NCBI GenBank assembly: GCA_009838035.1
Contig: VXSK01000002.1
Coordinates: forward strand, 248,001 to 312,000
From: Gammaproteobacteria bacterium
GTDB lineage: Bacteria; Pseudomonadota; Gammaproteobacteria; Steroidobacterales; Foliamicaceae
Direction of reading: 5' to 3'
DNA length: 64,000 nt
Under the pieces are notes generated by a model that was not told where the DNA came from, made no database searches, and saw nothing but the letters and a program-made list of their open reading frames with translations. Within the stretch, counting starts at the first letter, position 1. Each line of letters starts with the position of its first letter. A program made the translations under genes and the position numbers. Positions 38,086 to 58,715 of this stretch are shown one piece after another.

Positions 38086-38119
38086 ATCGCCCGCCCCCAC
38101 GGCGTGCCGCAAAGGAACA

Positions 38120-39436: not shown

Positions 39437-39915
39437 CTAGCCGAAGTCTTCAGATGGCGAAAGAGCAGCAGAACGCAGACCACGGTCAGCAGTCCCGCCC
39501 CAAGCACGCCTGAGAAATACGCCCAATGGACCGGAATGCCCAGAAACACGGTCGTCTCGCCGTCGTCGAGCTTGTGCATCGCGCCGACGAACAGGCGCCA
39601 GGTGATCAGGCCCGCGACAATCGCGAACGTGACGTTGTGCACCGCGTCCAGCGTCGCCCTGAATCGCGGAGGCGTTTTCCCGGTAAACAACTCCACGACG
39701 ATATTGGCATTGGTGATATGGCAGTACGGGAAAAAGGCAAACACCGCGATCCCGATCGCAAGTTCGGTGATTTCATAATCGCCGGGGACGGGAGCATTGA
39801 ACAGATAGCGTCCGAGGACGCTGACCACCGTCATCCCCATCACCCCGACCAGCAGCAGGCCTCCCGCCAGAGCGAGTGCCCGCGCCAGCCGCTTGACCCG
39901 GCCGTCAGGGCTCAC
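39433..39915 (-). CDS. dctQ: TRAP transporter small permease subunit (DctQ type)
   Basis: 160 residues from a GTG at 39915 that overlaps the solute-binding protein stop by 11 bases; a longer start would extend 29 residues into that gene. Four membrane helices and the conserved NANIVVELF segment identify DctQ. It pairs with the large permease. Confidence 0.85.
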   Translation of the reverse strand: MSPDGRVKRLARALALAGGLLLVGVMGMTVVSVLGRYLFNAPVPGDYEITELAIGIAVFAFFPYCHITNANIVVELFTGKTPPRFRATLDAVHNVTFAIVAGLITWRLFVGAMHKLDDGETTVFLGIPVHWAYFSGVLGAGLLTVVCVLLLFRHLKTSAR

Positions 39916-40975: not shown

Positions 40976-41105
40976 TGAGAATCACTAGCCCTGCGTGTGC
41001 GAAAATGCCTCGACGAGCAGCGGGGGGTCTCGCCAGGTACCCCGGCGGCCAACATACAGTACCCGATTATTCGCCGCTGCGCTCCTCAGGAACAGGAATC
41101 AGGAC

Positions 41106-42869: not shown

Positions 42870-42946
42870 CGGGACGGTCGATTGACAGACAGGAATGAGT
42901 TGGCCTATTGTCATCGCGACACGTTATCCAGTGCGGGGGAATTCTT

Positions 42947-43246
42947 ATGCACGTCGTCGCTTTCGTCACTCACAAGCCGGGACTGGTACAGGAAGGCAGC
43001 GAAATTCAGGGCGCTTATACCGACTATCTGCGTGATCATCCTGAACACCCGGAAATTACCGTTCTCCACGCCGGACCGACCCTGGCCGACGACGCTGAGA
43101 CCATCGTGGGCTTGCTATTGGTTGTCGAAGCGCCCTCATTGGAGGCGGCGCGTGCGTTTCTGGCTGACAGCCCCTACGGCAAGGCGGATGTCTTTGCAGA
43201 AACCCGGATCCAGCCCTGGAACTGGAAAACGGGCAGCCCGGGATAG
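42947..43246 (+). CDS. YciI-like protein
   Basis: 99 residues from an ATG with GGGGGAAT upstream. It has the small ferredoxin-like YciI fold with the conserved His-Asp pair region (DYLRDHPEHPE) and the C-terminal DPYGK-like element (ADSPYGKADVF). YciI-like proteins include chloromuconolactone-dehalogenase-like enzymes and many of unknown function. It lies just upstream of the Rieske oxygenase genes and may act on their product. Confidence 0.7.
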   Translation: MHVVAFVTHKPGLVQEGSEIQGAYTDYLRDHPEHPEITVLHAGPTLADDAETIVGLLLVVEAPSLEAARAFLADSPYGKADVFAETRIQPWNWKTGSPG

Positions 43247-43398
43247 TGACCTGTCCCTGCTGATGGGGCCATTTATTCGCTAGTGGCCTGACTCGGAAAA
43301 GCAGGCTAAAGACACTGTGTCTGAGGCGGTTGCAACTCCGTCGCCTCCAGAACTCCTTATCCGGTTGTGAATCGGCATTCCGGGACGCGCGCGAACTT

Positions 43399-44754
43399 AT
43401 GGACATCCAGGACCTGATCATCGACGACCGAAAACGCGGGTTTTTTCGGGTCCATCGATCATGCATGACCTCCCACGATCTGTTCCGCCGGGAACGGGAA
43501 TTGATCTTCGACCGGTGCTGGATCTACCTCGGACACGAATCGGAAGTGGAGAACCCCGGAGATTACCGCCAGCGCACGGTGGCCGGCCGGCCGCTGTTTT
43601 TCATCCGAAGCAAAGACGGCCGTGTACGGGTGTTCCTCAATTCCTGCCCGCACCGCGGTGCATTGATCTGCCGCCGCAACGCCGGGAATGCCAAAGTTCT
43701 GCAATGCTTCTATCACGCCTGGTCTTTCAACACCAGCGGTGAGCTGATCGGCGTTCCCGGACAGGACGCCTACGGCCCCCACTTCCAAAGAAGTGAACAC
43801 GGGCTGAAGGAGCCGCCCAGGGTCGAAAGCTACCGGGGTTTTTACTTTGTGAGTTTCAATCCAGACGTCGAAGACCTCGTGACCTACCTGGCGGGGGCGA
43901 GAGATTATCTTGACCTGGTCGTCGACCAGGCCGAGGAAGGAATGCGGGTGATTTCCGGCTCCAACAAGTACGCGATAAATGCCAACTGGAAGCTGCTGGC
44001 CGAGAACAGCCTTGACGGATACCACCTGATCCCGACGCACCGGACTTACGTGGATTACATGTCCGGCCTTGGAACGGACGACAGCGGCGACACGCTGGCC
44101 ACCCGCCCGCCCGGCGCGGGGCTGGCACTGGGCAATGGCCACTGCGTGTCGGAGAACATATCCCGGAACGGCCGCCCCATCGCCCGCTGGCATCCGGTAT
44201 TCGGCGAGGAGGCCAAGCCGCGGATAGCGCGGATCCGCCGCCGCCTGGTGCAGAAGTACGGAGAAGAGCGCGCCTACCGGATGGCCGACACCTCCCGCAA
44301 TCTGCTCATCTATCCGAACCTGTTGATTATGGATTTCGTGGCCATCAGCATCCGGTATATCGAACCTCTGGCTCCGGACAGAATGGAGGTGACAGCCTGG
44401 CATCTTGTGCCCAGGGAGGAGTCAGGCGACACGCTGGCCACCCGGCTCGACAGCTATCTGACCTTCCTCGGACCCGGTGGCTTTGCCACACCGGACGACG
44501 TGGAAGTCCTGGAATCATGTCAGATAGGATTCCGGGCCTCCGGTACCGAGTGGTCCGACATCTCAAGGGGTATGCTCAAGCCCAACCCGGGAACGGCGGA
44601 TGAGCTCCAGATGAGGGGATTCTGGCGGCAGTGGCACGCCAATATGCAGGGCCTGAGTCAAGCCAACGTGCAGGACGGACAACCTGTGGAATCGCAAGCC
44701 GCAACGGCTTCGGAAACCGGCCACCGTGACCGTAGCCGGACCAGTGGACGATGA
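43399..44754 (+). CDS. Aromatic-ring-hydroxylating dioxygenase, Rieske alpha subunit
   Basis: 451 residues from the ATG at 43399. The Rieske cluster ligands are CPH and CFYH with the usual 17-residue gap (about residues 82-103), and the mononuclear iron site is NWKLLAENSLDGYHLIPTH with the two His and the bridging Asp. The alpha and beta genes overlap by four bases. No ferredoxin or reductase is nearby, so electrons must come from elsewhere. The flanking NCS2 permeases hint at a nitrogen-heterocycle or similar substrate, but a benzoate-like acid is as likely from sequence. Confidence 0.9.
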   Translation: MDIQDLIIDDRKRGFFRVHRSCMTSHDLFRRERELIFDRCWIYLGHESEVENPGDYRQRTVAGRPLFFIRSKDGRVRVFLNSCPHRGALICRRNAGNAKVLQCFYHAWSFNTSGELIGVPGQDAYGPHFQRSEHGLKEPPRVESYRGFYFVSFNPDVEDLVTYLAGARDYLDLVVDQAEEGMRVISGSNKYAINANWKLLAENSLDGYHLIPTHRTYVDYMSGLGTDDSGDTLATRPPGAGLALGNGHCVSENISRNGRPIARWHPVFGEEAKPRIARIRRRLVQKYGEERAYRMADTSRNLLIYPNLLIMDFVAISIRYIEPLAPDRMEVTAWHLVPREESGDTLATRLDSYLTFLGPGGFATPDDVEVLESCQIGFRASGTEWSDISRGMLKPNPGTADELQMRGFWRQWHANMQGLSQANVQDGQPVESQAATASETGHRDRSRTSGR

Positions 44755-45245
44755 CAGCCAACAGCAACCCCGCGTTGCGAGCAAGCGTAGAGGAATTCCT
44801 TTTCCGGGAAGCGGCTCTTCTGGATGAATGGAGACTGGCAGAGTGGGTCCATCTGTTTACGGACGACGCCCGCTACGTGGTTCCCTCCACGGATTTGCCG
44901 GAAGGCGACCCCGCGCGCGACCTGGTGTTCATCGACGACGACATCGTCCGTCTGCGCGCCCGCGCGGCGCGGCTGAATAGCCGGCATTCTCATCGCGAGA
45001 ATCCGCGGTCGCGAACCCGCCGGTTTGTTTCAAACGTGCGGGTAGAAGAAACCGACGACGGACAACTCTCCGTTTTCGCGAACGTCCTGGTTTACCGTTT
45101 CCGCAGCGGCGAAGGAGCGCCCTACGTCGGCACCATCGAATACATCCTGCGCAGAGACGGCAGCGATTTGAGAATTGCGTACCGCCGCGCAGTGCTGGAT
45201 CTGGAAGACCTCTCCTGGCACGGTGCGGTCAGCATCATATTTTGA
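44751..45245 (+). CDS. Aromatic-ring-hydroxylating dioxygenase beta subunit
   Basis: 164 residues of the NTF2-like beta-subunit family, with FLFREAALLDEWRLAEWVHLF at the N-terminus, RTRRFVSNV in the middle and YRRAVLDLEDL near the end, all typical. It supports the alpha3beta3 assembly and is not catalytic. The start overlaps the alpha stop. Confidence 0.9.
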   Translation: MTANSNPALRASVEEFLFREAALLDEWRLAEWVHLFTDDARYVVPSTDLPEGDPARDLVFIDDDIVRLRARAARLNSRHSHRENPRSRTRRFVSNVRVEETDDGQLSVFANVLVYRFRSGEGAPYVGTIEYILRRDGSDLRIAYRRAVLDLEDLSWHGAVSIIF

Positions 45246-45276
45246 ATGACAGGTGATCCGGGCTTCCGGGATTTCA

Positions 45277-47040
45277 ATGACTGAATCGAGCATCGATAAA
45301 GGGCTGCGTTTTGAAGCGAACGACCGGCCTTCCCTGCCCCTCACTATCGGCCTGGGGTTGCAGAACACGGCGCTGACGCTGGCCGGCGTCGTGCTGACTC
45401 CCACAATCCTCATCACAACCGCCGGCGCGGGCGATGCCTATCTCCGTTGGGCCCTGTTCGCCGCGCTGGTGGTCAGCGGCATGGCCACGTTCATTCAGGC
45501 CGTGCGATTCGGCCGCATCGGCGCCGGTTACATCCTGGTGATGGGCAGCACCACGGCTTATCTGGCGGTCGGCATAAGCGCCGTGCGCAGCGGAGGTCCC
45601 GAGCTGATGGCCACGCTGATTGTCGTGGCTGCCTTCACGCAGTTCATTCTCGGCTCGAGGATGGCCATGTTGCGGCGCGTGTTTACGCCGACGGTTGCCG
45701 GCACGGTGCTCATGCTGATACCCGTGAGCATCGCCCCGATCATTTACGGCAAGCTGATCAATGTACCGGCAGGCGTCGCACCCGCTGCGGCGCCGGTAAC
45801 TGCGCTGGTGACGCTTGCCGCCTCCGTTCTACTGGCGCTCAGATTGTCCGGCATCTGGCGGCTCTGGGCTCCCGCGATCGGCCTGGTATCCGGGAGCCTC
45901 GCGGGCGCGTGGTTCGGAATCTACGACACCGCGCGCGTTGCGGCCGCGCCCTGGATGGGGCTGCCGGATTTCAGTGCCTATCCGGGGCTTGACCTCAGCT
46001 TCGACGCCACTTTCTGGGCGCTGCTTCCGGGTTTCATCCTGGTCACGCTGGTCGGCGCCCTTGACACGCTGGGCGACGCGATCGCGATCCAGCGCGTGTC
46101 ATGGCGCAAGCCGCGCGCAACCGACTTCCGCTCGATCCAGGGCGCAATCTATGCCGATGGGGTCGGCAACCTCCTGTCCGGATTGGGCGGGACGGTACCG
46201 AACACCACTTACGGCAATTGCATCGCAGTTGTGGAAATCACCGGAGTGGCCGCCCGCCGTGTCGGCGTCTGCGTCGGGGCTGTTTTCGCTGTCCTGGCTT
46301 TCCTGCCGAAAATCGTCGCCGTGGTTGTCGCAATACCGGGACCGGTCGTGGGGGCTTACCTGGCCGTAATCATGGCGCTCATTTTCGTTCTTGGACTGCG
46401 AATCGTGATTGCCGATGGATTCGATTACCGCAAGCGCCTGATCGTCGGATTCGCTGTCGTTGTGGGCATATTGTTCCAGTTCGACCTGGTCTATCCGGCT
46501 CTTCAGGAAGGAGCGTGGGGTGAGATTCTCGGTCAGGGCATGACGGTCGGAGGCATCACCGTCATTCTTCTCTCGGCCTTCGTGGATCTGACCCGGTCCA
46601 GACCGCTGCGCCTGCGGACCACGCTTTCCGTCGCGGCGGTTCCGGCAATCGATGCGTTCCTGCACGATTTCGCCCAACGGGCGCGTCTGGATGAACGGAC
46701 CACGTTCCGGCTTCGCGCGGTCGGCGAAGAAGTCCTGCATATCCTGCTGGACGACCGGGTGGAGGAGGCCGAGCGCGACCTGTTGCTGATTGCGCGGGCG
46801 GACGGTCTGGCCACGGACCTGGAATTCATCGCCGGCGGCTCGGAATTCAATCTGGAAGACCAGCTCGCGATGCTGAGCGAGGGAGGCGCCGACCTCCCCA
46901 ACGAGTCCGAGGTGCCGCTGCGCCTGCTGCGCCATTACGCCACTTCGGTCCGACACCAGCAATATCACGGAACGGACATCGCCACGATCCGCATCGAACC
47001 GGAGGGGGCCCCCAGCGGCGAAACGCGGGCTAGTTCCTGA
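45277..47040 (+). CDS. NCS2 permease fused to a GHKL/RsbW-like ATPase domain, copy 2
   Basis: 587 residues from the ATG at 45277 (CGGGA upstream; a GTG at 45253 is possible). It is a clear paralogue of the protein at 41106: same permease segments (QRVSWRKPRATDFRSIQGA, ADGVGNLLSGLGGT) and same C-terminal extension, with FRLRAVGEEVLHILL at the N-box position and LRLLRHYATSVRHQQYH near the end. As in copy 1 the catalytic Asn of GHKL ATPases is not visible. Its stop overlaps by 11 bases the convergent end of the next operon. Confidence 0.75.
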   Translation: MTESSIDKGLRFEANDRPSLPLTIGLGLQNTALTLAGVVLTPTILITTAGAGDAYLRWALFAALVVSGMATFIQAVRFGRIGAGYILVMGSTTAYLAVGISAVRSGGPELMATLIVVAAFTQFILGSRMAMLRRVFTPTVAGTVLMLIPVSIAPIIYGKLINVPAGVAPAAAPVTALVTLAASVLLALRLSGIWRLWAPAIGLVSGSLAGAWFGIYDTARVAAAPWMGLPDFSAYPGLDLSFDATFWALLPGFILVTLVGALDTLGDAIAIQRVSWRKPRATDFRSIQGAIYADGVGNLLSGLGGTVPNTTYGNCIAVVEITGVAARRVGVCVGAVFAVLAFLPKIVAVVVAIPGPVVGAYLAVIMALIFVLGLRIVIADGFDYRKRLIVGFAVVVGILFQFDLVYPALQEGAWGEILGQGMTVGGITVILLSAFVDLTRSRPLRLRTTLSVAAVPAIDAFLHDFAQRARLDERTTFRLRAVGEEVLHILLDDRVEEAERDLLLIARADGLATDLEFIAGGSEFNLEDQLAMLSEGGADLPNESEVPLRLLRHYATSVRHQQYHGTDIATIRIEPEGAPSGETRASS

Positions 47041-47737
47041 CGAAATGGCCCAGGTAATGGCGGCTTTCCGCTCGAGTGCCGCCTTCGCTTACGCAAGCAT
47101 CGTGAACCAAGCGCTCGGAACAGCAGACGTACGCGACATTCGCCGACTGCAGCATCCGCAAACAGGGAGCCTGTCGGGTATTCCGGATATAAGCGTCGGC
47201 CACTTCGCCGGGATGGAGGCGTTCCGGTGAAGCCACGGACTCCGCCATTTCTTCGATGGGTACCGGCACCAGATAGACATACCGGTCCGCGGGGCCCCTG
47301 TTCACGACGATCCGGTTCCGGCTTTTCCATCGTGAGGACACTTCGAGCCCGTCCCACGAGTCGAGGTGCAAGCCCAACCTCAACCCCGATACCCGATCCA
47401 CCGTAATCGAAGGATGATTCGCGTCGTCGATGGACGGGTCGAGCGCGGCGACAGGCGACAGGCTGAGAAATGGCGAGAAGTCCAGCGCTCGCTCGGATTT
47501 CAGGTCGCAGGGAAAGATTGCGACAAAGTCCAGTGCGGCCTCGATTGACAGTTCGTCAAGAGAAGCGGTGAACTTGTTGATTTCGACTTTATTCATCCTT
47601 CGAAAGTCGACCGGCAATCTTGCGTCAGGCCGATAGTCAACGGCATTCGGGTAATACTCCTGCGCGCAGACCAGCGTTTCGCTGACCGAAATCAGGTCGT
47701 GTGCATCGCCCAGCCTGCGGTCAATGTAGATTTTCAT
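47030..47737 (-). CDS. Putative Fe(II)/2-oxoglutarate-dependent oxygenase, RiPP tailoring enzyme
   Basis: 235 residues from the ATG at 47737; a TTG at 47782 would add 15 residues. The C-terminal half fits the 2-oxoglutarate oxygenase core: HLDSWD gives the HxD pair (His124, Asp126), NRIVVNRGPADRYVYLVPV is the typical strand pair after it, SERLVHDACV supplies the distal His (His212), and Arg226 in SRHYLGHF could bind 2-oxoglutarate. The N-terminal half is unfamiliar. It lies 46 bases after the radical SAM gene in the same direction, so I infer hydroxylation of the modified peptide. The family call is by motif only. Confidence 0.6.
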   Translation of the reverse strand: MKIYIDRRLGDAHDLISVSETLVCAQEYYPNAVDYRPDARLPVDFRRMNKVEINKFTASLDELSIEAALDFVAIFPCDLKSERALDFSPFLSLSPVAALDPSIDDANHPSITVDRVSGLRLGLHLDSWDGLEVSSRWKSRNRIVVNRGPADRYVYLVPVPIEEMAESVASPERLHPGEVADAYIRNTRQAPCLRMLQSANVAYVCCSERLVHDACVSEGGTRAESRHYLGHFVRN

Positions 47738-47783
47738 TGAAGATTTGGCGGCGCCGGCGCGATAGCGCAGCGACCCCGCCAAC

Positions 47784-48959
47784 TCAGACCAGGTCTGCGC
47801 CGACCTTTTCCAGCGGTTCGCCGTGCAGGGCCAAGTGCCTCACGACGTGGGTATAGAACTTGTCCAGCCCTTCGCAATAGACCGTGGGGTTGTCGAACCC
47901 ATTGCCGCTGGCATACCGGTGCACCGGCTGGCCGCCGCCGCAGACGTCACGCCAACAGCAGTCGGAACATTCAGGCGCCGGCGTCTTCTTGAAGTGCTCG
48001 AATTCGTGAAACAGCGGGTCCGCGATGATTTCCCCAATGCTGGCGCTCTTCAGGTCCCGGTAGTCATACCCGTTCCAGTACTTCGTGGATCTCAGCGTGT
48101 CGTCCGGCCCGACTCCCCCGTCGGACGACACGGTAATCAGCAGATGGTCCGGGGCATCCCTCCCGTCGCCGAACAGGAAGTTGCCCTGCCCGTAGAGCCG
48201 CGCCAGAAAATGATCGATGAACCGAACGCCCACCGACTCCTCGTCATTCGCCATCCTGTCGAAAACCTCGATCAGGAAATTGCCGTAGGCTTCCGCGTTG
48301 CCGGAAAAATTGTCGTGATTCAGATCAGGCAGCAGGAAGTCGAGCTGACGCACGTTCAGGTCATGCCGGAAGTGATCGTAGATTTCCCCGGGATCGAATT
48401 CCGCCCCGATGACGGCCAGGACTGCCGGAGGTTGATTCAGGTGTTCCTGACACAGTGCCAGACCGCGAACGGTCGCCTGGTAAGACGACCTTCCGTTGTG
48501 GTCGAGGCGATGGGCGTCGTTGTGCGCCTTTGCCCCGTCCAGGCTGACACCCACCTGAATGCGATGCTTGTTGAAAATCTCTATCCACTCGAGATCAACC
48601 AGCATTCCATTGGTCTGGATTGTCATCGACACATCAACGATGGGATCCAGATTTGACCTGATTTCTTCGCAGATCCGGTCGAGCCGGGCTTTCGGCATCA
48701 GAAGCGGTTCGCCGCCATGCAGGTGAATCGCTATTCGCTGAAGTTCGTACTCCTCGGCGAATTCCCTGAGCCTTTGCACCAGCAGCGCAACCGTGTCATT
48801 CGCTATGAGCGCCGAGTGGCCCTTGTAGCTGTCGTCTCCTGCATTGAAGAAATAGCAGTAATCGCAATTCAGATTGCATCGCTCGGTAATCTTCAGTATC
48901 ACTTCCAGCGTATTCAACTCGCGGAAGTTCACTGTTCTTCCTTCAGTAGCCACAGGCAC
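47784..48959 (-). CDS. Radical SAM/SPASM peptide maturase (FxsB/cyclophane-synthase-like)
   Basis: 391 residues with a GTG start. The radical SAM cluster motif is CNLNCDYC (Cys28, Cys32, Cys35), followed by HLHGGEPLL and the TIQTNGMLV and VGVSLDG strands. The C-terminal SPASM-type region has Cys331, Cys334, Cys335, Cys340 and Cys362 in CSDCCWRDVCGGG and VYCEGL, for auxiliary Fe-S clusters. This architecture is that of enzymes that crosslink side chains in RiPP precursors (FxsB, XyeB, GrrM types). The precursor with three FVS motifs lies directly upstream. No separate PqqD-like recognition domain is seen. Confidence 0.88.
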   Translation of the reverse strand: MPVATEGRTVNFRELNTLEVILKITERCNLNCDYCYFFNAGDDSYKGHSALIANDTVALLVQRLREFAEEYELQRIAIHLHGGEPLLMPKARLDRICEEIRSNLDPIVDVSMTIQTNGMLVDLEWIEIFNKHRIQVGVSLDGAKAHNDAHRLDHNGRSSYQATVRGLALCQEHLNQPPAVLAVIGAEFDPGEIYDHFRHDLNVRQLDFLLPDLNHDNFSGNAEAYGNFLIEVFDRMANDEESVGVRFIDHFLARLYGQGNFLFGDGRDAPDHLLITVSSDGGVGPDDTLRSTKYWNGYDYRDLKSASIGEIIADPLFHEFEHFKKTPAPECSDCCWRDVCGGGQPVHRYASGNGFDNPTVYCEGLDKFYTHVVRHLALHGEPLEKVGADLV

Positions 48960-48972
48960 GCTCGCTTTTACT

Positions 48973-48997
48973 CCCTGAAGCTTCTCCAGCTTCAGGG
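48973..48997 (-). promoter_or_regulatory. Intercistronic hairpin overlapping the maturase ribosome-binding site
   Basis: A perfect 9-base inverted repeat (48973-48981 and 48989-48997, sequence CCCTGAAGC / GCTTCAGGG) has a 7-base loop. On the minus-strand mRNA its 3' arm ends in CAGGG and is followed by AG, which together form the best Shine-Dalgarno match before the GTG start of the radical SAM gene. Folding would hide that site and could lower maturase translation relative to precursor. No T-tract follows, so it is not an intrinsic terminator. Confidence 0.6.
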
Positions 48998-49034
48998 CCA
49001 GGCAACAGGCTCAGGACAGTCGGGTTTCTGCTAC

Positions 49035-49334
49035 TTAAGCATCCGGCGCAGGTGGCGCCGAAACAAAATTGCCGCCTGCCACTGCCTGACGTCCCGCCGC
49101 GACAGCATCGTCCACGGGCGGAGCGGAGACAAAATTGCCGCCTGCTACCGCACGGCTTCCCGTCGCCACGGCATCGTCCATGGGTGGCGCAGAAACGAAA
49201 TTGCCGCCTGCTCCCGAATAGCTCGAGATCTTCGTCCGCAGATTCGGACCGATTGCCTTGCCCGCTGCTTCCTTCTGGTCATTGGCGGAGATTCCCAGCT
49301 TCTCCCGGAGCTTTCGCACCTTCATGTCTTCCAT
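49035..49334 (-). CDS. RiPP precursor peptide with three AGGNFVSAPP repeats
   Basis: 99 residues with a strong ribosome-binding site (GAGGGG, 6 bases before the ATG). Residues 1-41 form a charged, helical leader (KVRKLREKLGIS). Three identical decapeptides AGGNFVSAPP follow at residues 42-51, 64-73 and 86-95, spaced by 22 residues, with linkers rich in Asp, Ala and Val. Each repeat holds Phe-Val-Ser, the FxS pattern used by FxsB-type radical SAM enzymes to make three-residue cyclophanes, at Phe46, Phe68 and Phe90. Position just before the radical SAM gene and after two peptidase genes supports the call. A non-peptide-product role is unlikely given the repeats. Confidence 0.8.
   Translation of the reverse strand: MEDMKVRKLREKLGISANDQKEAAGKAIGPNLRTKISSYSGAGGNFVSAPPMDDAVATGSRAVAGGNFVSAPPVDDAVAAGRQAVAGGNFVSAPPAPDA
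49056..49211 (-). repeat. Three 66-base tandem units in the precursor gene
   Basis: The segment AAATTGCCGCCTGC (plus-strand reading) recurs at about 49066, 49132 and 49198, exactly 66 bases apart, and encodes the GGNF part of each core. The units differ at third positions and in the linkers, so the decapeptide is kept at protein level while the DNA diverges. This favours selection on the core over recent duplication. Confidence 0.8.
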
Positions 49335-49378
49335 AGTTCCCCTCGCTTATTTGCCAAAAGTGATTTCATTCTACATGC

Positions 49379-51610
49379 TCACGACGTCCCCGGAGCAGAC
49401 ACTTTGGCGGTCCCGTTCTGGAGCTCACGGAGCTTTCGCCAGCGATTGTATTGATTCGCTCTCGCCGGATCGTTGTTTTCTTCATCCTTCAGCCAAAAAG
49501 CGAACCAGTCAACGGCCCCTTGCTGCGACTCCAGGCGCTCCCAGGGGCGCTCGGGGTTGTGACTCGCCTCAGGCAGTACGATCATCTCCACCGGTCGGCC
49601 GAGCTTGCGCAGGAGAATATAGGTGTCCCAATACGAAGGGATCTGGTGCGATTCGATACGGAGCGGCGTGATCATTTCCTCAAGGTTGAACACGGGGTTC
49701 CGCTCAATCCAACTCGTGACCCCATCACCGACCGGAGCACCGTCCAACATCCGCTCATAGTCCCGCTGAAAGCCGCCGAAACCATAGCCGGTCATGTACA
49801 TCCACCAGCCGAAATCGCTCACATCGGCAACAACGGCGGCCGCGAACTCGAAGTCCCCCATCGTCAGCGCGTGCTGCACGTAAAAACCGGTCCGGCTGAA
49901 ACCCGTAATGCCAACCCGTTCCGGATCGATGAGCCCCATTCCGTCCAACACGCGAACGGCGTCGATATAGGAGGCGGACACCTCCTCGGCCTCCTTGGGA
50001 AGCTGCAGCGATTCGCGCGGGCCGTCGGGCACCTGTAGCACCACGAAGCCCTCGTTGGCAAGCGCCCGCGCAGCCATGGCGGCCGACATGCCGCGCGGCC
50101 CGTCCACGAGGAATTCCCACTCATGAAAGCCATGGGTCTGGACCACCAGCGGATACCGCCGACCCTCTTCGAAGCCTATGGGACGGAGCAGTCCCCCCAT
50201 CCAGGTCCGGCCTCCCGACTCCCAGTCAAAGGACTCCACGACGCCGATTGCAAGATCCCGCAACTGTGGATTGAAATCGGTGATTTTCCGGCTCTTCCCG
50301 CTAGGGCTGTGCGTGGCCACGATCTCGGGCGGCTCATTCAGCTCCAGAGCCAGCGAGAAACTCAATCGCGGGCCGTCGTCTTCATCCTGTTCGCCACCTT
50401 CGATTGGCGTCCATCCCGACTCCCCTCTGAAGACCGTTACCGGCGGACCAAAGCGTGACCCGAGCGTTACGGTGGTCAGTGCGCTGTCGGCGTCGAGCGA
50501 GTTGTGCTCGCCCAGCGCAACGATTTCCAGGCTGCCGGACTCAACTTCAATTTCGATCGTCGCGTGCTTGCCCCCGGTTTCCGCGTCGCCGGCCGAGAAT
50601 GGCACGAATTGATCGGACACCACGACACGCCGCGAGTCGGGCGACCATCGGATGACGGACGTCAGGCCATTGGGCGAATCAAGCAGCGGACGCGTTTCGC
50701 CGGTCTGCATGTCCACCAGCATCAACTGCGTCATCCAGAGAATGGTCACGCCCTCTTCGCGCATGCCGGCGATCATGTCGGACAGCAAACCCCAGTCGAG
50801 TTCATACCAGTGGTCCGGTATGACCGGCATTCGCCTGGGAACGATCGCCCATTGTCCCGACGGCGATACCGACATAACCGGGTTGACGAGCGTCTGCGGG
50901 GCAAGGTCCACGGTGACCGTTTCGCCACCACCAGTGCGGGCCACGAACACCCCGTGAGGATAGATGTCGCTGATGATGTCGCGCCCCTCATTCATCAGGG
51001 TCCAGACCGGCTCGAAGTCGTGGACATAACCGTACTTCTGCCGCCGGAGCCGTTCCGCTTCGTCATCCGCCGGCACGAGAACGAGCAAGCCGCCTTCGCC
51101 AGCGCCCGCGGCAAAGTCGATCACGCCTTCGGGATCGTCAGTCCATTGCCGCATTTCGCCGAACCCGGGATCGACGCTGAACACCTGCGGTTGCCCACTC
51201 GGGTTCTCGGCCACGAACATCAGCGTTGGACCGTCCGCGAGCCACCTGACTTTCTGGATCGCGGGCCGGTTCGTGGAAGAAGAAAAACGGGCGATAACGC
51301 GACCCGGCCAGGCGCTTCTGCCGTCGCCGATCACAAAGGCTTCGACTTCGTGGAGCGGAAACAGCCAAAGCGAGTAATCGACGGTTTCGTTGTCGATATT
51401 GCCTTTCTTGGTGACGGCGGTGAGGTATTCGCCTCCGGGCGAAACATTGAACTCCAGGGCCAGGTAGCCGTAGGCCTGCAAGTTCGGCTCGGCCAGCCGG
51501 GTCATCTCGATGGAATCCCTGACCGTGAACGGCTCCCTGGCCGTGCAGACCGCCGAAACCGCCAACGCTACCGGGAGCAGGAACGCGCCTGCCAGTCGTG
51601 GTTTCCGCAT
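49379..51610 (-). CDS. Exported S9 (prolyl oligopeptidase-like) peptidase A
   Basis: 743 residues with a Sec signal ending near VCTA. A beta-propeller region (about residues 40-430) precedes an alpha/beta-hydrolase domain with the nucleophile Ser572 in GFSRTG and a candidate His684 in PEASHNPERP. The usual catalytic Asp segment is replaced by RIESHQIPS, so the acid is missing or moved. This layout and the C-terminal SQQGAVDWFAFWL remind me of the lasso-peptide isopeptidases (AtxE type) found beside FecI/FecR and TonB receptors, but I cannot confirm this. The start abuts the stop of peptidase B (TGAATG). I infer cleavage or recycling of the RiPP. Confidence 0.75.
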   Translation of the reverse strand: MRKPRLAGAFLLPVALAVSAVCTAREPFTVRDSIEMTRLAEPNLQAYGYLALEFNVSPGGEYLTAVTKKGNIDNETVDYSLWLFPLHEVEAFVIGDGRSAWPGRVIARFSSSTNRPAIQKVRWLADGPTLMFVAENPSGQPQVFSVDPGFGEMRQWTDDPEGVIDFAAGAGEGGLLVLVPADDEAERLRRQKYGYVHDFEPVWTLMNEGRDIISDIYPHGVFVARTGGGETVTVDLAPQTLVNPVMSVSPSGQWAIVPRRMPVIPDHWYELDWGLLSDMIAGMREEGVTILWMTQLMLVDMQTGETRPLLDSPNGLTSVIRWSPDSRRVVVSDQFVPFSAGDAETGGKHATIEIEVESGSLEIVALGEHNSLDADSALTTVTLGSRFGPPVTVFRGESGWTPIEGGEQDEDDGPRLSFSLALELNEPPEIVATHSPSGKSRKITDFNPQLRDLAIGVVESFDWESGGRTWMGGLLRPIGFEEGRRYPLVVQTHGFHEWEFLVDGPRGMSAAMAARALANEGFVVLQVPDGPRESLQLPKEAEEVSASYIDAVRVLDGMGLIDPERVGITGFSRTGFYVQHALTMGDFEFAAAVVADVSDFGWWMYMTGYGFGGFQRDYERMLDGAPVGDGVTSWIERNPVFNLEEMITPLRIESHQIPSYWDTYILLRKLGRPVEMIVLPEASHNPERPWERLESQQGAVDWFAFWLKDEENNDPARANQYNRWRKLRELQNGTAKVSAPGTS

Positions 51611-54064
51611 TCAGCGCTCCTCGCTATCGGCGCCCAGGTACCGGCCGTACCAGTCGAAAATCCGCGACCACATGTCGCGGATATTCGCCGGCGAGTTGTA
51701 GACATGGCCTTCGCCCCAGTAACGCACGAACAGGGCGTCCTTGTTCTCACGCAGCAGGGCCGTAAACATCTGCTCGCCCTCCGTCATAGACACGTAATCG
51801 CGGTCGCCCTGCATGATCATCACCGGCGTCTCGATATCGGGCGCGGTGAACAGAGGGCTGTTCCTGAGGTAACGCTCCGGATCGTCCCATGGCGGCGCAC
51901 CCATGCCGCCCTGACTGGTTTCCGACCAGCTCGCGCCGAAAAGGCGCGGCCCGTTCAACTCCGCGGCTTCACGCAGGCGCACATCAAAAACGCCGTACAT
52001 GCTGATCAGATTGGCGGGCCCGGCAAGCGCGACCGCCGCCTTGAAACGGTCGGTCTGGGCAATCGCGCCCAGCGTCGCGTAGCCGCCGTAACTCTGTCCC
52101 TGGATCGCCAGTCTGTCCCCATTCGAATAGCCAGCCTCGATGGCGAGGTCGACCACCTCAAGGATTCGGTCCGCCAGTCCCTTGAGCGGGTCCCGCGGCA
52201 CCTCGTGGTAGGCCTCCGGGAGACTGGGGAAGAGGACCGCATAACCCCGTGCGGCCAGCAGGTGCCAGTTCAGCGCATGCATGTCCCAAGGGTCGAACCG
52301 GTGCCATTCGTTGCGATATACCCCACCGGGATAGACATCGACGATCGTGGGCAGACTTGCGCCCTCGCGATAGCCGGGCGGCATGAGGATCCAGGAATAG
52401 AGCTGCCGCCCGTCCGCACCCTCGTGATCGATGCGAACGGGAGTGCCGGCCGCAACGCCCTCAAGATGCCGGTTAATTCTCATCAGCTCGCGGCATTCGC
52501 CACCACGCGCGCATGCACTCAATACGCCAACGTTTCCCGCAACGTCTCGGTACAGCACGCGTCCAGCGGTGAAAGACGCGGCTATGGGCGTTGCGCGCTC
52601 CGATGGCGCAACCACGCTGCGGACGGTTCCGTCCGCCGCATCCAGAAATACAATTTCGCCGTTGTCTCCCTGCAATACAAGCTGCGGATCGTAGCCTGCA
52701 GCAAACGGAGATGGCGGCCCGAAGCCGTCATGCGCCTGCCAGGTCTTGAGCGGGAAATCGATATCCACCGTCAGCAGGGTGCGTCGGCCATCGGAACCGA
52801 TCGACCACACATCGCCGTCTGCGAGCGCGATGAGACGGTTACCGAGCACCGCTATGAGGTGAATAGGAGAGTCGCCGAACTCGCCGCTCAGCTTTCGCGC
52901 CTCTCCGGCCGGGGAAACAATGAACCACTCAGGCCTCGCCTCCCCTTCCGGGTCCGAAGCGAACACGGCCAGGCTGTCTCCGAACCAAGCGGTCTGCGGC
53001 GCCAACAGTAATTGCAGAGGTCCGGCGCGGGTGACGAGCTTCAGTCCCCCCAGTTTTACCGGCTCGGCCCCGTCGGAGTGCGCGTCGAAGCGCCAAAGCC
53101 TCCCGGTGCTCCAGGCCTCGCCGAGCAGGCGTGCAAAAAACACCAGGGACTGGCCATCCGGCGACCACTTTGCGGTACCCATCGCTATATCGCAGTCGGG
53201 GCAAGGCAGAACGGGGGCGCTTCCTTCTCCCGTTTCGATCACCAGCAGGTCTCTGTGCACTCCGCCGAGGGCCGCGTGCTCCAGAGGCAGTGTCGGGTCA
53301 GGCGCCAACGGCCGGGTGCGTACCGCTGCGAACCGGCGCCGATCAGGCGAAAGTTCCCAGGACTCGAAATTGCCGTCCGCCATTGTTGTGGTGGCTCCGG
53401 TCTGTGCATCAGCCAGCACCAGTTTTCCCTGTACTTTCCGGGATTCGGTAAGCAGGTACTCGCCGCTCCCGATCTCGCTTGACGTCGCCATCCTTCCCCT
53501 TCTCGCCTTTTGCCACTCGGCATACAGCTCGTCGCGCGATTCGGCGTGCAGGTAAACACCCAAGGGCAATGATCCCTCCCGGGTCGTGGCAAATCCCAGC
53601 GTCGAGTCCGATATCCAGACAGGCCCCACGTAGAGAACGCTTGCTTCCGGTATGGCCTTGAGGGCCACGGAGCCGCCCTTCACAAAGTCGTGGATTCCCG
53701 TCACGAAATGGCTGCTGCCCACACGGAAGTACTGGAGTCGGCTGCCGCCCGGCGAAAGGGTTCCGATCCTGTAACCGTCGCCCGGTACCTGCGGGAAAGC
53801 GGACCTCGGGACCGCGTCTCCTTCCAGATCGGCAACAAGGATCCTGGAACGCTGCTGCCCGCGCACGAAGACGCGGCTGAAATCCTGCATGTCTTCGTAG
53901 GCGGGAAAATGCTCGAAATACACGTGGCGGCCGGTGGGGCCGAACACCGCATGGCCGAAGTCCTCGTTGCGGAGCATGTGGTCCACCGTAAAGACCTCGG
54001 CCGCCGTGGCCGCTCCGACGGAGAGCAATGCACCGCAGACGAACGCGTGGGTAATATTCTTCAT
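51611..54064 (-). CDS. Exported S9 (prolyl oligopeptidase/DPP-like) peptidase B
   Basis: 817 residues from the ATG at 54064, with a Sec signal ending near ATAA. The N-terminal propeller is followed by a complete catalytic domain: Ser658 in GQSYGG, Asp756 in QGDRDYVS and His787 in GEGHVYNS. S9 enzymes favour short peptides, often cutting after proline; the core repeats end in Ala-Pro-Pro. It follows the TonB receptor by 109 bases and abuts peptidase A, so both are likely made together in the periplasm. Confidence 0.85.
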   Translation of the reverse strand: MKNITHAFVCGALLSVGAATAAEVFTVDHMLRNEDFGHAVFGPTGRHVYFEHFPAYEDMQDFSRVFVRGQQRSRILVADLEGDAVPRSAFPQVPGDGYRIGTLSPGGSRLQYFRVGSSHFVTGIHDFVKGGSVALKAIPEASVLYVGPVWISDSTLGFATTREGSLPLGVYLHAESRDELYAEWQKARRGRMATSSEIGSGEYLLTESRKVQGKLVLADAQTGATTTMADGNFESWELSPDRRRFAAVRTRPLAPDPTLPLEHAALGGVHRDLLVIETGEGSAPVLPCPDCDIAMGTAKWSPDGQSLVFFARLLGEAWSTGRLWRFDAHSDGAEPVKLGGLKLVTRAGPLQLLLAPQTAWFGDSLAVFASDPEGEARPEWFIVSPAGEARKLSGEFGDSPIHLIAVLGNRLIALADGDVWSIGSDGRRTLLTVDIDFPLKTWQAHDGFGPPSPFAAGYDPQLVLQGDNGEIVFLDAADGTVRSVVAPSERATPIAASFTAGRVLYRDVAGNVGVLSACARGGECRELMRINRHLEGVAAGTPVRIDHEGADGRQLYSWILMPPGYREGASLPTIVDVYPGGVYRNEWHRFDPWDMHALNWHLLAARGYAVLFPSLPEAYHEVPRDPLKGLADRILEVVDLAIEAGYSNGDRLAIQGQSYGGYATLGAIAQTDRFKAAVALAGPANLISMYGVFDVRLREAAELNGPRLFGASWSETSQGGMGAPPWDDPERYLRNSPLFTAPDIETPVMIMQGDRDYVSMTEGEQMFTALLRENKDALFVRYWGEGHVYNSPANIRDMWSRIFDWYGRYLGADSEER

Positions 54065-54173
54065 GTGTGGAGTCTCAATTGGCCGGCGCCGCTCGCGAAG
54101 CACAGATCTCCATGTGCAGATCAGCAACCTGCGCGAGAGATTTCCGGCAGCGATCCGCCGGAAAGCAGAGCCT

Positions 54174-56960
54174 TTACCAGCGATTCACCAGACGCAATGA
54201 GACATAGCGGCCCATCGCGTTCGCGTTTGTTGCATCATAAAGAAGACCCGTCGAATTACCCGCCACCTTGGGTGGGCTTCGGTCAAACAGGTTGGTAACG
54301 CTGAAGGTCGCGGAAAAACCACCCAATACCGGCATTGAAGCCAGTTCGGCGCCATCGAGCCGAAGGCTCAGATCCACGGTAGTGTGGGATCTGATCGCCT
54401 GCTCCGGATTAATCAAGACATCCACATAGTTGTCCGTGTAGTTAACATACACATTGCCGCTCAACAGGCCTCGGTCGAGTCCGGCCCGGGCACGGAATTG
54501 CATGTTTACCGGCCGGCCCGCACGATCGAGTTCGGATCGGAACGGAGAAACCACGGTAACCGCGCGATCAAACTCGAAATAGTACGAAGCGTTGAATCCG
54601 ACGGAAAGTACACCGAAGCTGGTGGAACGCTGTGAATTGACGGATAGATCCAGCCCCCTGATTCTTTCGAGTCCTATGTTCTGCCGCTGATTGTTGAACA
54701 GCACGAGCCCAGGCAAAGCGACAAGCGGATCGTCCACTCCGTGCGCGTAGGGAAGACCGCTCTGGTTGAAGAAGCGAAAGGCTTCCGGCAGGGACGTATT
54801 TGCCAGGGCAACGTCGACTAACGCGTTTACCTGCTCGCGGGTCGGCATCCGCGTGATGACGGGAGCATAGATTGCTTCGTTGTTCAGGGAAGCGAAGGCG
54901 TCGTTGATGCCCGTGGGTTCGTCGATCCGGTTCTCGTAATCGATATCGAAATAAGAGAGGGTAAGGGTGGTGTTGTCGAGGAATTCGGGTTCATAATCGA
55001 GCGAGAGCGTAAACGTTTCCGCTTCTTCCGGCGTCAGGTCGGACGAAGCGCCCGCCAAAACCAGAATCGGCGCAAATCCTCCGGGCGCCATCGGATCGGG
55101 GCCCATTCTCAGGATGGCTTGCGCGGAATCCGGCGCAAAATCGAACAGGAACAACGACGGCGCGCGAAAGGACGTGCCCCAGGTGCCGCGCAGGGTCACT
55201 TGTTCGCCCGGCGCGTAAATCACCCCTACCTGCGGCTCCGTCGTATCGCCGATGTCGCTGTAATCGTCGTAACGGACTGCTGCATTGATCTCGAAACGGC
55301 GCAGTCCGGGCTGATCACCGTCAGTTATGAATGGAAGGCGTAGCTCGCCGTACCCCGAAGATACGTCGCGGTCGATGTCGGTGGTCACCCCGCGGCCATC
55401 GAACCTTAGTTCCCTGAACACCTCAGTCCGGTGTTCAATCCCGAGCGCAAACAGAACGTCAGTGGTCCCCATCGTAAGGGCCGTGCCATCGAGATCCAGG
55501 CTCAATTGAGTGCTTCGCACGGACTCTTCGCCGGCCGTCTCCCGGTCGCCGAATGAGCCGCCGCTGATTGCCTTGAACCACGAATCACGCTCTCCGTAAG
55601 TGCCCGTGAACTGCAGGTTCCAGTCGCCTCTGAAGCCGACCGTCAGACCGGCGGTGCCCCGGAACGAGTCGCCCCGAGTTTCAGTTGCATTGAGAAGCGT
55701 GAAGGGGCCCACCGTCCGATTGGACTCGGAGTAACTCTCTTCTTCGGTAAAGATGATGTCGCCCTGCAAACGGATGTTGTCGGCAAGATCGTAATGACCC
55801 GCAACAAAAGCGGTTTGGCGATCCCGTTCCGGCAGGAGGTCCCACTCGTCGGCAGTGGGCAGCGACGAGCCAAACGGGAACGGTACGCCTTCGCCTGCGA
55901 CACCCGCGGCGGTCGCGTCCAGACGGGAGTTGTTCTGATAATCGTAGGCAAGGACAAAACCCGCGTTTTCGAATTCCATGCCTCCAACCACGCTGGCCTG
56001 CCGCCGGTCGCCGCCATCGCGACCAAAACCACCATAGACTTGCGCTTCCAGGCCGTCATAGGACTTGCGTGTAACGAGATTCACTACGCCCGCTACGGCG
56101 TCGGAGCCGTAAATCGCCGAGGCGCCGCCGGTGAGGACATCGACACGTTCAATCACGGACAAGGGGATGGCGCCCACGTCGAACACCCTGCCGTTGATTG
56201 CAGCGGGATAACGGCGCCCGTTTAGCAAGCTTAGAGTGGATTCTGGGCCGAGCCCCCTGAGCGAGATCGCCGTGGTGCCGTCAACATTGGAGTTCGCGAT
56301 TCGCGAAACACCCGCGGCGTACCTTCCGGATGCGGATATTTCCCCAAGGTTCTGCGGCAGCGCCTCGAGGAAGTCCTCGACGCTGTTCATTCCGGAGTCA
56401 TAAAACTCGTCGCGAGTGAACGAAACCGAAGGGCTCAGGGTTTCTATTCCGCGGATGCGCGTGCCCGTGACCACGATTTCTTCCAGGGCCAGGGCATCAC
56501 GATCAACCTCGGGTTCTGCAGTTTCGGCGGTAACCGGCTGAGCCTGCGCCAACCGTGCCGGTTCGACGGTCTGCGCCCCCGCCAGCCGAGGTGATTCGGG
56601 CCGAGGATTGTTGCTACCGATCGAAGCTTCCATAATGTCGGCGCTGCGCCCCTTTATCGTTACTGCTTCGCCCACGGTGCTGAATTTCAGGCCGGTGCCG
56701 TCGAGCAAGGCCACAAGAACCTTTTCCGCCGTTCCCTCGCCGGTGAAGCCCGAAGTCTCGACCCCTTCAAGCGACCGGGCCGCGACGACAAGTTGCAGTT
56801 TTGCCTGTACCGAGAATTCGAGGAGCGCAACGTCCAGAGGCTGCGGATCAATGTCGAATTGCCTGCTCTCGGCGGGTTCGGCCTGCAGGAGCGGAACGGC
56901 GCCGAAAACCAGCGATACTGCCAAGGCGACACGAATTAAACAGGATTCACTTTGGCGCAT
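54174..56960 (-). CDS. TonB-dependent transducer/receptor with STN domain
   Basis: 928 residues from the ATG at 56960 (GAGGAGAACA upstream). A Sec signal (ends near LLQA) is followed by a secretin/TonB N-terminal STN domain (about residues 33-105, FDIDPQPLDVALLEFSVQA to GEAVTIKG), a Pro/Ala-rich linker, EEIVVTGTRI, the plug (GLGPESTLSLLNGRRYPAAI, VLTGGASAIYGSDAVAG) and a 22-strand-type barrel ending VSLRLVNRW. The STN domain lets such receptors signal through FecR to an ECF sigma factor, both encoded just upstream. I infer uptake or sensing of the RiPP or its metal or ligand complex. Confidence 0.92.
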   Translation of the reverse strand: MRQSESCLIRVALAVSLVFGAVPLLQAEPAESRQFDIDPQPLDVALLEFSVQAKLQLVVAARSLEGVETSGFTGEGTAEKVLVALLDGTGLKFSTVGEAVTIKGRSADIMEASIGSNNPRPESPRLAGAQTVEPARLAQAQPVTAETAEPEVDRDALALEEIVVTGTRIRGIETLSPSVSFTRDEFYDSGMNSVEDFLEALPQNLGEISASGRYAAGVSRIANSNVDGTTAISLRGLGPESTLSLLNGRRYPAAINGRVFDVGAIPLSVIERVDVLTGGASAIYGSDAVAGVVNLVTRKSYDGLEAQVYGGFGRDGGDRRQASVVGGMEFENAGFVLAYDYQNNSRLDATAAGVAGEGVPFPFGSSLPTADEWDLLPERDRQTAFVAGHYDLADNIRLQGDIIFTEEESYSESNRTVGPFTLLNATETRGDSFRGTAGLTVGFRGDWNLQFTGTYGERDSWFKAISGGSFGDRETAGEESVRSTQLSLDLDGTALTMGTTDVLFALGIEHRTEVFRELRFDGRGVTTDIDRDVSSGYGELRLPFITDGDQPGLRRFEINAAVRYDDYSDIGDTTEPQVGVIYAPGEQVTLRGTWGTSFRAPSLFLFDFAPDSAQAILRMGPDPMAPGGFAPILVLAGASSDLTPEEAETFTLSLDYEPEFLDNTTLTLSYFDIDYENRIDEPTGINDAFASLNNEAIYAPVITRMPTREQVNALVDVALANTSLPEAFRFFNQSGLPYAHGVDDPLVALPGLVLFNNQRQNIGLERIRGLDLSVNSQRSTSFGVLSVGFNASYYFEFDRAVTVVSPFRSELDRAGRPVNMQFRARAGLDRGLLSGNVYVNYTDNYVDVLINPEQAIRSHTTVDLSLRLDGAELASMPVLGGFSATFSVTNLFDRSPPKVAGNSTGLLYDATNANAMGRYVSLRLVNRW

Positions 56961-56988
56961 GTTGTTCTCCTCACTAAGGTCTGCCGCA

Positions 56989-58101
56989 TCACTGCCCGGC
57001 TTCGCGTGGCCGTTTGCGGATAACGACTTTGTTTTCGTCCACCAGCTGCACCTCAAGATCAAATACGTCCTCAAGGGCCTGCAGCCAGTCGCCGGTCTGG
57101 TCCTGAAACACCGATCCGGTAAAGAGCATTTCTTCAATCTCGGCGTCAAGAATCATGATTTCCTTGCCGGAATAGCGGCTCACACCCTCCATGACGTACT
57201 GGAGGGGTTCCGCCCGATAGCGCAGAAGCCCGGCCTGCCACTGCGTTGCCTCGGTGGGATCGTTCAGTTCGACCACACTCAGTTCCGTTGGGCCGACCAC
57301 GGCCTGGGCGCCGACCCCAATCCGCGCGGCCGTCTGTTGACGGTATGACGGCGCGTCTCGCGCACCGGCATGGGCCCCGTCAACCGTGCGCCTGACCTCA
57401 ACACTCCCCTCGGTCACGGTCACGACGACCCGATTGGCATCGCGGCGCACGTTGAATACCGTCCCCAGCGCCGTAATGGTCCCGGCGCCCGCCATGACGA
57501 TGAAGGGACGGCCTGCATCTTCCACTACACGGAAAAGGGCCTCGCCGGTTTCCAGCATGACGACGCGCTGCTCAGCGGAAAAGTTCACGGAAAGCGACGA
57601 CCTGGCCCCCATCGCAATGGCGGACCCGTCGGGCAGCGTGATGCTTTGATGTTCCGCGACCTCGGTCTGGTGGGCCTGAATGGATTCATCCGCCTGCGGC
57701 GGCAGCACGTAGAAACGGACCAGCAATACGCCAGCGGCCATCACGGCGGCGGCGACTGCCGCTGTCGCGGAGCGGCGAACCCAGGGAGGCATTGCTGCCC
57801 AACGGCCCCATAAGTCGAGCGCCGCGATGCCCGCCGCCGCCCCCGCCTTCCCGGAAGAATCCGCGGCTGCCGGTGCAGGACGAACGCGCTCACGCCCGGG
57901 ATGTGACGGCACCGGAATGTCCTTCAGATCATCGGCGTAATCCTCCACTCGGCGCGAAAGCCGCTCCACCTCGGCAAACGCCTGTCTGTTGCGCGCGTCT
58001 CGGTTGATCCACGCCTCCCATCGAAGCAGTTCGCCAGCGGAAATATCCGGCTCCTGCAATTTCATCAGCCATGCGGCCGCTTGTTCCCGTCTGTTGCTCA
58101 T
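56989..58101 (-). CDS. FecR-family anti-sigma/signal transducer
   Basis: 370 residues from the ATG at 58101, overlapping the sigma-factor stop by four bases. The cytoplasmic N-terminal DUF4880-like part (EQAAAWLMKLQEPDIS, LLRWEAWINRDARNRQAFAEVERL) is followed by one membrane helix (about residues 110-130) and the periplasmic FecR domain (HQSITLPDGSAIAMGARSSL, GTVFNVRRDANRVVVTVTEG). The C-terminus has an STN-like fold. It links receptor occupancy to the sigma factor. Confidence 0.92.
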   Translation of the reverse strand: MSNRREQAAAWLMKLQEPDISAGELLRWEAWINRDARNRQAFAEVERLSRRVEDYADDLKDIPVPSHPGRERVRPAPAAADSSGKAGAAAGIAALDLWGRWAAMPPWVRRSATAAVAAAVMAAGVLLVRFYVLPPQADESIQAHQTEVAEHQSITLPDGSAIAMGARSSLSVNFSAEQRVVMLETGEALFRVVEDAGRPFIVMAGAGTITALGTVFNVRRDANRVVVTVTEGSVEVRRTVDGAHAGARDAPSYRQQTAARIGVGAQAVVGPTELSVVELNDPTEATQWQAGLLRYRAEPLQYVMEGVSRYSGKEIMILDAEIEEMLFTGSVFQDQTGDWLQALEDVFDLEVQLVDENKVVIRKRPREAGQ

Positions 58102-58715
58102 GGTTCCTTGTGGGTATCGAAGACCTGGGCTAGGTTCGGATCCGGTGCCGCGGATTCCAGCCTTTCCGCGCAGTGGGCCAGCGCGCGCGCAACGTATAGC
58201 CGCACCATGCGCACCGACAGCTCCATCCTCGTTGCTGTCTCCGCAATCGAGAGCTGATGGACCTTGTATAAGAGAAAGGCGGTTCTGCACCGGGGCGGCA
58301 ACTCCGCGAGCGCCTCCCGGACTATCGCAAGTTCCTGCGCTGCAAGCACCGCCTTTTCCGGGGAGGGGCTGGACTCCTCGGCGCCGACAAACGCGGTCTT
58401 GCGCAGTGAGGCGCGACGCTTGCGCTGCTTCAGCCGGTCATTGGCAAGATTGGCCGCCACGCGAAAGAGATAGGCCCGGAAGTGATTGACCGCGTCCGGC
58501 TCATTCAGCCCCAGGAGCCTGACGTAGGCCTCCTGAGCTATTTCCCGCGCTTCCTCGTCGGAATGAAGCCGGGCAGCAAGGAACCGCACCAGGGCGGCAT
58601 TGTGCTCCTCAAAGAGCGAGACTACGCGTTCCCTGGGATCTTTCGTTCCGCGCCCTGATGCCGCCCGAGTAGAGGTCGGGTCATCGACTCGCTCGCTCTG
58701 GTTGTTCTTTCGCAC
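58098..58715 (-). CDS. ECF sigma factor (FecI type)
   Basis: 205 residues with a GTG start. Region 2 reads EEAREIAQEAYVRLLGL with HFRAYLFRVAANLANDRLK, and region 4 reads LAELPPRCRTAFLLYKVHQL with a helix-turn-helix after it. It is the first gene of the RiPP operon and overlaps fecR. It should direct RNA polymerase to its own or the receptor promoter when FecR releases it. Confidence 0.92.
   Translation of the reverse strand: MRKNNQSERVDDPTSTRAASGRGTKDPRERVVSLFEEHNAALVRFLAARLHSDEEAREIAQEAYVRLLGLNEPDAVNHFRAYLFRVAANLANDRLKQRKRRASLRKTAFVGAEESSPSPEKAVLAAQELAIVREALAELPPRCRTAFLLYKVHQLSIAETATRMELSVRMVRLYVARALAHCAERLESAAPDPNLAQVFDTHKEP

Follow-up and report, generated by a model that had tools for sequence, protein, structure and literature searches.

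A candidate multi-core cyclophane RiPP trio juxtaposed with a lasso-type uptake cassette in a gammaproteobacterial genome

The window, by which we mean the whole 64,000-nucleotide stretch of DNA analysed here, holds a close-packed block of eight open reading frames, all on the minus strand (58715-47030), which probably comprises two juxtaposed modules: a trio of genes for a cyclophane RiPP (precursor, radical SAM enzyme and oxygenase; 47030-49334) and a lasso-type uptake cassette (sigma factor, FecR, receptor and the S9 peptidases S9B and S9A; 49379-58715) that may act on the cyclophane peptide. Module 1 would make a multi-core product from a leader bearing GGNF[VIL]S units, which number from one to at least four; a three-residue cyclophane is probably formed by the radical SAM enzyme between the Phe and the Ser of every F-x-S, and subsequent hydroxylation or another oxidation of the core is probably the work of the 2OG enzyme. 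This module is the conserved unit and appears to move horizontally, mostly beside a Rieske/NCS2 gene cluster, among sponge-symbiont-like bacteria. In module 2, the STN receptor, FecR and FecI would sense and import a ligand that the two exported-looking S9 peptidases would digest; where present, the cassette would most likely recapture and digest the cyclophane peptide, the cell's own or that of neighbouring symbionts. Both the multi-core cyclophane RiPP family with its lineage-specific lasso-type uptake cassette and the juxtaposition itself appear, judging by sequence, to be new, and a literature search found no paper describing this gene combination.

Gene content and family assignments

The tight, single-strand packing described in the sequence-only reading was borne out once starts were refined (Table 1). 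The sigma factor and FecR genes overlap by 4 bases, followed by gaps of 28 (FecR-receptor), 109 (receptor-S9B), 0 (S9B-S9A), 44 (S9A-precursor), 75 (precursor-radical SAM) and 46 bases (radical SAM-oxygenase, although the alternative oxygenase start at TTG 47782 would abut the radical SAM gene). No terminator-like sites were found between the eight genes on the coding strand, a program scan for sigma-70-like promoters gave no match and an Rfam search returned nothing informative. Coding sequences of the window genome (G000) and a second species (G080) are under purifying selection (dN/dS 0.07-0.24), and the block is thus not a product of chance. The gene identities previously assigned also held, with Pfam and NCBIfam models recovering an ECF sigma factor, FecR, a TonB receptor, two Peptidase_S9 proteins and a radical SAM enzyme, and the precursor being recognised by its repeats; as had likewise been claimed, lasso B (Transglut_core3) and lasso C (Asn_synthase) domains are absent among the eight genes by Pfam, and none of the eight encodes an exporter.

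Table 1. Features of the eight-gene block and the neighbouring Rieske/NCS2 cluster
Feature	Coordinates	Strand	Remarks
ECF sigma factor, FecI-like	58098..58715	-	Pfam/NCBIfam
FecR-type anti-sigma/transducer (DUF4880 + FecR)	56989..58101	-	Pfam; refined start
TonB-dependent receptor, FecA-like STN signalling domain	54174..56960	-	listed ORF opens at TTG 57149
S9 peptidase B, N-terminus signal-peptide-like	51611..54064	-	listed ORF opens at TTG 54127
S9 peptidase A, N-terminus signal-peptide-like, AtxE2-like hydrolase domain	49379..51610	-	
Precursor 5' region (TGTAGAAT..., RBS GAGG)	49335..49378	-	shared by cassette-free species; cassette stops just upstream
Precursor peptide, 99 aa, leader + three GGNFVSAPP core units	49035..49334	-	
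Radical SAM/SPASM peptide maturase, XyeB/YhhB/FxsB clade	47784..48959	-	
2OG/Fe(II)-oxygenase-like protein	47030..47737	-	ORF opens at TTG 47782
NCS2 (xanthine/uracil-type) permease	45253..47040	+	recurrent trio neighbour; Pfam/NCBIfam
Ring-hydroxylating dioxygenase beta subunit	44751..45245	+	
Rieske ring-hydroxylating dioxygenase alpha subunit	43330..44754	+	recurrent trio neighbour
Putative YciI-like small protein, 112 aa	42908..43246	+	family name is a reading; frame conserved
Second NCS2 permease	40995..42869	+	

The window precursor combines a leader of the pattern KVRKLREKLGIS..DQ..AAGKAI.PNL..KIS with three AGGNFVSAPP units spaced at 66 nt. Across the 12 trio loci described below, precursors carry from one to at least four units, these counts being lower limits for two precursors whose repeats are masked as N (L041:3811-3913 and L042:2760-2860), and GGNF[VIL]S is invariant in each unit read. 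All core units of the 12 precursors accordingly contain the aromatic-x-x motif expected of three-residue cyclophane substrates, as F-[VIL]-S; FxsB-type cyclophane enzymes target F-x-S, as the names FxsA and FxsB imply. The radical SAM enzyme scores 293 bits against XyeB, 292 against YhhB and 271 against FxsB, in each case under the curated equivalog cut-off (450, 445 and 370, respectively). Pfam places Radical_SAM above and SPASM just under cut-off, the cysteines of the CxxxCxxC motif (28, 32, 35) and of the SPASM region (331, 334, 340, 362) are invariant in the alignment, and a profile search of the PDB matched the radical SAM domain of ChlB (E 2e-68). These family scores and the repeated cores support the earlier proposal of a cyclophane-type radical SAM enzyme with a multi-core precursor, and the enzyme is best classed as a cyclophane-type maturase outside the named XyeB, YhhB and FxsB families. 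As it scores below all equivalog cut-offs, family membership does not fix the exact crosslink, for which we infer a Phe-Ser linkage.

Assignment of the last gene as 2OG-oxygenase-like was upheld despite the fact that no Pfam or NCBIfam family model matched it. A profile of 12 oxygenase homologues matches the aKG-dependent oxygenase MicC (PDB 9vkm) over residues 9-232 with an E-value of 5.6e-15 (only 0.006 for the single window sequence), and the HxD and H motifs align between the two proteins, which are nonetheless distant. The facial triad H124, D126 and H212 is invariant in 12/12 sequences, including a distant Caulobacter homologue (L098), and the distal R226 is nearly invariant, its L098 counterpart having been assigned by eye; the HxD..H facial triad and distal Arg of 2OG-Fe(II) oxygenases are therefore both present. 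The AlphaFold model is poor (pLDDT 61), and of the Foldseek matches listed for it, the best and nearly all others are 2OG/JmjC proteins, with weak E-values. The YhhC model (NF041706), against which a true YhhC scores 253 bits, gave no match to the third gene of the window trio, and our literature search found no paper on MicC.

Upstream of the trio, the ECF sigma factor, FecR and STN receptor that together characterize FecI/FecR cell-surface signalling are all present. Residues 74-170 of the receptor match the signalling-domain end of the FecA model NF041676, which covers the STN domain, the Pfam STN model itself being silent. Residues 426-742 of S9A, corresponding to the hydrolase domain only, match the lasso isopeptidase AtxE2 (5txc, E 1.6e-23), and S9A scores 157 bits against a cut-off of 400 in the presence of the sigma/FecR/TonB context. 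Its relatives in another proteobacterial family (L132, L133, L135 and L136) lie in sets of FecR, STN receptor and S9 genes, which in most cases include a sigma factor; both lasso domains, B and C, occur next to the set in two of them (L132 and L136). These four loci support the contention that such an arrangement is a lasso isopeptidase context, as does a review of the sigma-FecR-STN receptor-S9 layout, in which no function is established (PMC9266682). The nearest S9A relative (L131, 37%) accompanies other S9 peptidases and an STN receptor, with no RiPP enzyme recognised in its neighbourhood; a search of plasmids with S9A gave two distant lasso-type matches and nothing else.

Distribution of trio, cassette and neighbouring genes

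To place the block in a wider context, 84,980 species genomes were scanned and further searches made within the window's own group. Precursor and radical SAM genes were found together in 12 loci (72-94% radical SAM identity, the next relatives being at 41% or less), 11 of them with the oxygenase. In the twelfth, from a Binatota MAG (L046:4075-5774), no oxygenase gene follows the pair. Five of the 12 belong to the genus of the window, which alone represents its family in the data used, and the remaining seven to MAGs whose labels read Gammaproteobacteria, Alphaproteobacteria, Rhodospirillales and Binatota. Compared with the window, the Binatota MAG shows identities of 73% for the radical SAM enzyme and 79% for the Rieske alpha subunit, but 58% for RpoB, and the Rhodospirillales MAG 79%, 81% and 57%, respectively. 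Because the trio/Rieske island is more conserved between phyla than RpoB, the comparison suggests that the island has been transferred horizontally, although binning errors are possible on short contigs. MAG binning and habitat were taken from the record names, of which COS, RHO, CO36 and SB06 resemble those of coral-reef sponge MAGs; as a study of the sponges Rhopaloeides odorabile and Coscinoderma matthewsi exists (PMC8163846), the carriers are, going by these names, probably marine sponge symbionts.

The cassette, by contrast with the trio, precedes the precursor in only two of the 12 loci, those of the window genome and G080. S9A was found in these two of nine genomes of the genus and is absent from the other seven, the same query recovering G000 and G080 as positive controls; it is also absent from the seven carrier genomes outside the genus, and thus from all ten cassette-free carriers. 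Cassette-free carriers include G026, sister to the window genome by rpoB (99.4% nucleotide identity). The co-occurrence of the radical SAM gene with FecI, FecR and S9 genes that the sequence-only reading had put forward as its check therefore proved largely contrary to it, and its view of the eight genes as one system found no support. One conserved eight-gene operon, as a candidate in its own right, was rejected on this genome comparison. In both bearers, the cassette adjoins the trio and is found nowhere else. At the module boundary in G060, G026 and G086, the 44-bp block upstream of the precursor continues into the region upstream of another TonB gene, which is read divergently, and the cassette-free species of the genus have one junction type in common. 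In five loci, a TTGACA read by eye precedes the precursor's -10-like element by ~17 bp; this sigma-70-like distance suggests that the trio is normally driven from its own promoter.

Divergence between the two cassette species is uneven. Synonymous divergence (dS) amounts to 0.35-0.43 for the sigma, FecR, precursor, radical SAM and oxygenase genes but to 0.035, 0.10 and 0.22 for the receptor, S9A and S9B, respectively, so that sigma and FecR have diverged as much as the flanks whereas receptor and S9A are nearly identical; over window positions 53600-57000, identity to G080 reaches 99% across the receptor gene compared to 82-90% in the flanks. This pattern indicates recent between-species recombination over the receptor and a mosaic of identity across the block, and the genes of the cassette seem to be functional and to undergo recombination. 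The same mosaic blurs gain versus loss of the cassette within the genus, and neither direction is favoured.

A stronger recurrent partner of the trio, missed by the earlier reading, is the Rieske/NCS2 cluster downstream (window 40995-47040), an island common to alpha- and gammaproteobacterial and Binatota MAGs beside the trio. In nine of 12 loci the trio has the Rieske alpha gene next to it, and in eight of 12 an NCS2 permease, with varying gene orders and strands; in L040, L041 and L046, the Rieske genes are co-directional and lead into the precursor, and G026, L043 and L044 hold the trio with no Rieske alpha nearby. Among genomes of the genus, 4/5 with the trio and 0/4 without it have Rieske alpha (P = 0.04, one-sided Fisher test by hand, uncorrected for phylogeny). 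Adjacent to this island, window positions 36907-40975 encode a class I aminotransferase together with a TRAP transporter (DctP, DctQ, DctM). Both recur close to the trio of L038 and L039, and a DctP/DctQ pair lies near the trio in L045; for the aminotransferase, the best models are those for aspartate transaminase and a GntC-like protein, and no model reaches its cut-off.

Alternative readings of the juxtaposition

The adjacency of cassette and trio in both bearers, with no detectable terminator, is the main point against separating the block into two modules, as it could mean that the genes form one operon there. Under that alternative, a peptide would be exported, sensed through the STN receptor, FecR and FecI, re-imported and degraded by the S9 peptidases, serving as a carrier or signal; the tight one-strand spacing and the AtxE2-like S9A, as found in lasso loci (PMC9266682), would fit. 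It is also consistent with a locus of Parvularcula (L099), in which a sigma factor, FecR and an STN receptor stand beside two small precursors, a YhhB/XyeB-like radical SAM enzyme and a C39-type ABC exporter, and which is, on gene content, one independent parallel to the linkage of such a cassette with cyclophane genes. FecR or a TonB-dependent receptor was, however, found near only one of the 69 distant radical SAM loci, the block has no exporter, and the cassette is missing from ten of 12 carriers along with S9A from their genomes, and we regard a single operon as rather unlikely. That the cassette is instead an unrelated lasso-type or peptide-scavenging island with another ligand, which arrived upstream of the precursor by chance, would agree with its patchy presence and its absence from G026, with the S9A, S9B and receptor homologues found apart from any recognised RiPP enzyme in L131, and with the mosaic exchange of receptor and S9A between lineages. 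Chance arrival sits poorly with its position beside the trio, and nowhere else, in both carriers and with purifying selection on all of its genes, and is to our mind unlikely, though less than strongly so.

The trio might alternatively serve the Rieske/NCS2 cluster, its peptide binding or delivering an aromatic or purine-like substrate or acting as a pathway ligand. Here, the recurrence of Rieske alpha and NCS2 genes in several orders and strands, the three co-directional loci and the distribution of Rieske alpha within the genus would argue in favour, as would Sphingomonas BPH, in which a lasso B2 transposon mutant lost phenanthrene use (PMC11006600); the absence of Rieske alpha near three of 12 loci, a point that also weighs on our two-module reading, and the prospect that the linkage partly reflects co-transfer of one island make this service distinctly improbable. 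Returning to the two-module reading, the position of the cassette beside the trio in both bearers and the Parvularcula analogue leave a functional link open, and sensing, re-import and degradation of the cell's own peptide is possible. That the cyclophane peptide is the ligand sensed, imported and digested in the two cassette species is a serious but somewhat doubtful proposal. Since the peptide seems to be produced by many symbionts in one habitat, the cassette may harvest a shared pool rather than only its own product. Under a further reading, which is very unlikely, the peptide would be secreted in sponges to carry an aromatic or nucleobase-like nutrient: producers across phyla would share it, cassette species would sense its loaded form, import it through the STN receptor and cut it open with the S9 peptidases, and the cargo would be used by the Rieske/NCS2 proteins. 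Set apart from the lasso-type uptake cassette, the trio represents a compact RiPP family amenable to testing, defined by a radical SAM enzyme, an oxygenase and a precursor whose leader is followed by GGNFVSA repeats, and apparently common to unrelated sponge bacteria; a second peptide class beside an isopeptidase/TonB-type cassette provides ways to test such peptides as carriers, signals or food, and the recurrent Rieske dioxygenase neighbour offers a further handle on the role of the peptide.

Relation to known systems

In its order of precursor, cyclophane radical SAM/SPASM enzyme and 2OG-Fe(II) oxygenase, the trio resembles YhhABC (NF041707 for YhhB, NF041706 for YhhC; L027), from which it differs in a radical SAM enzyme that is 31% identical and far from the YhhB cut-off, an oxygenase outside the YhhC model and a multi-core precursor with F-x-S. 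The three-residue cyclophane maturases XyeB and FxsB share the enzyme clade and the F-x-S target, whereas the window enzyme falls below their cut-offs, is accompanied by an extra oxygenase and has cores that are internal tandem GGNFVSA repeats rather than a C-terminal motif. Astexin (AtxE2) and sphingopyxin lasso clusters have in common with the cassette the ECF sigma factor, FecR, STN receptor, an S9 peptidase resembling AtxE2 in its hydrolase domain and the lack of an ABC exporter (PMC9266682); unlike these isopeptidase clusters, the window replaces lasso B and C with a radical SAM route, and has two S9 peptidases, a same-strand layout and an S9A below the 400-bit cut-off.

Several distant loci show further combinations of such genes. 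The Parvularcula region (L099:2511-15000) also encodes an HExxH protein, and its precursors carry a GGGYSR motif. In a Caulobacter sp. MAG (L098:7213-15140), a radical SAM cluster lies with a divergent TonB-type receptor gene, a methyltransferase-like gene, a C39-type ABC transporter and the distant homologue of the window oxygenase. Nitrospirillum iridis (L053:9676-16705) has a multi-core precursor with repeated FDL[ST], a radical SAM enzyme and an S9 peptidase with a signal-like N-terminus in a row, and a C39-type ABC transporter in the same region.
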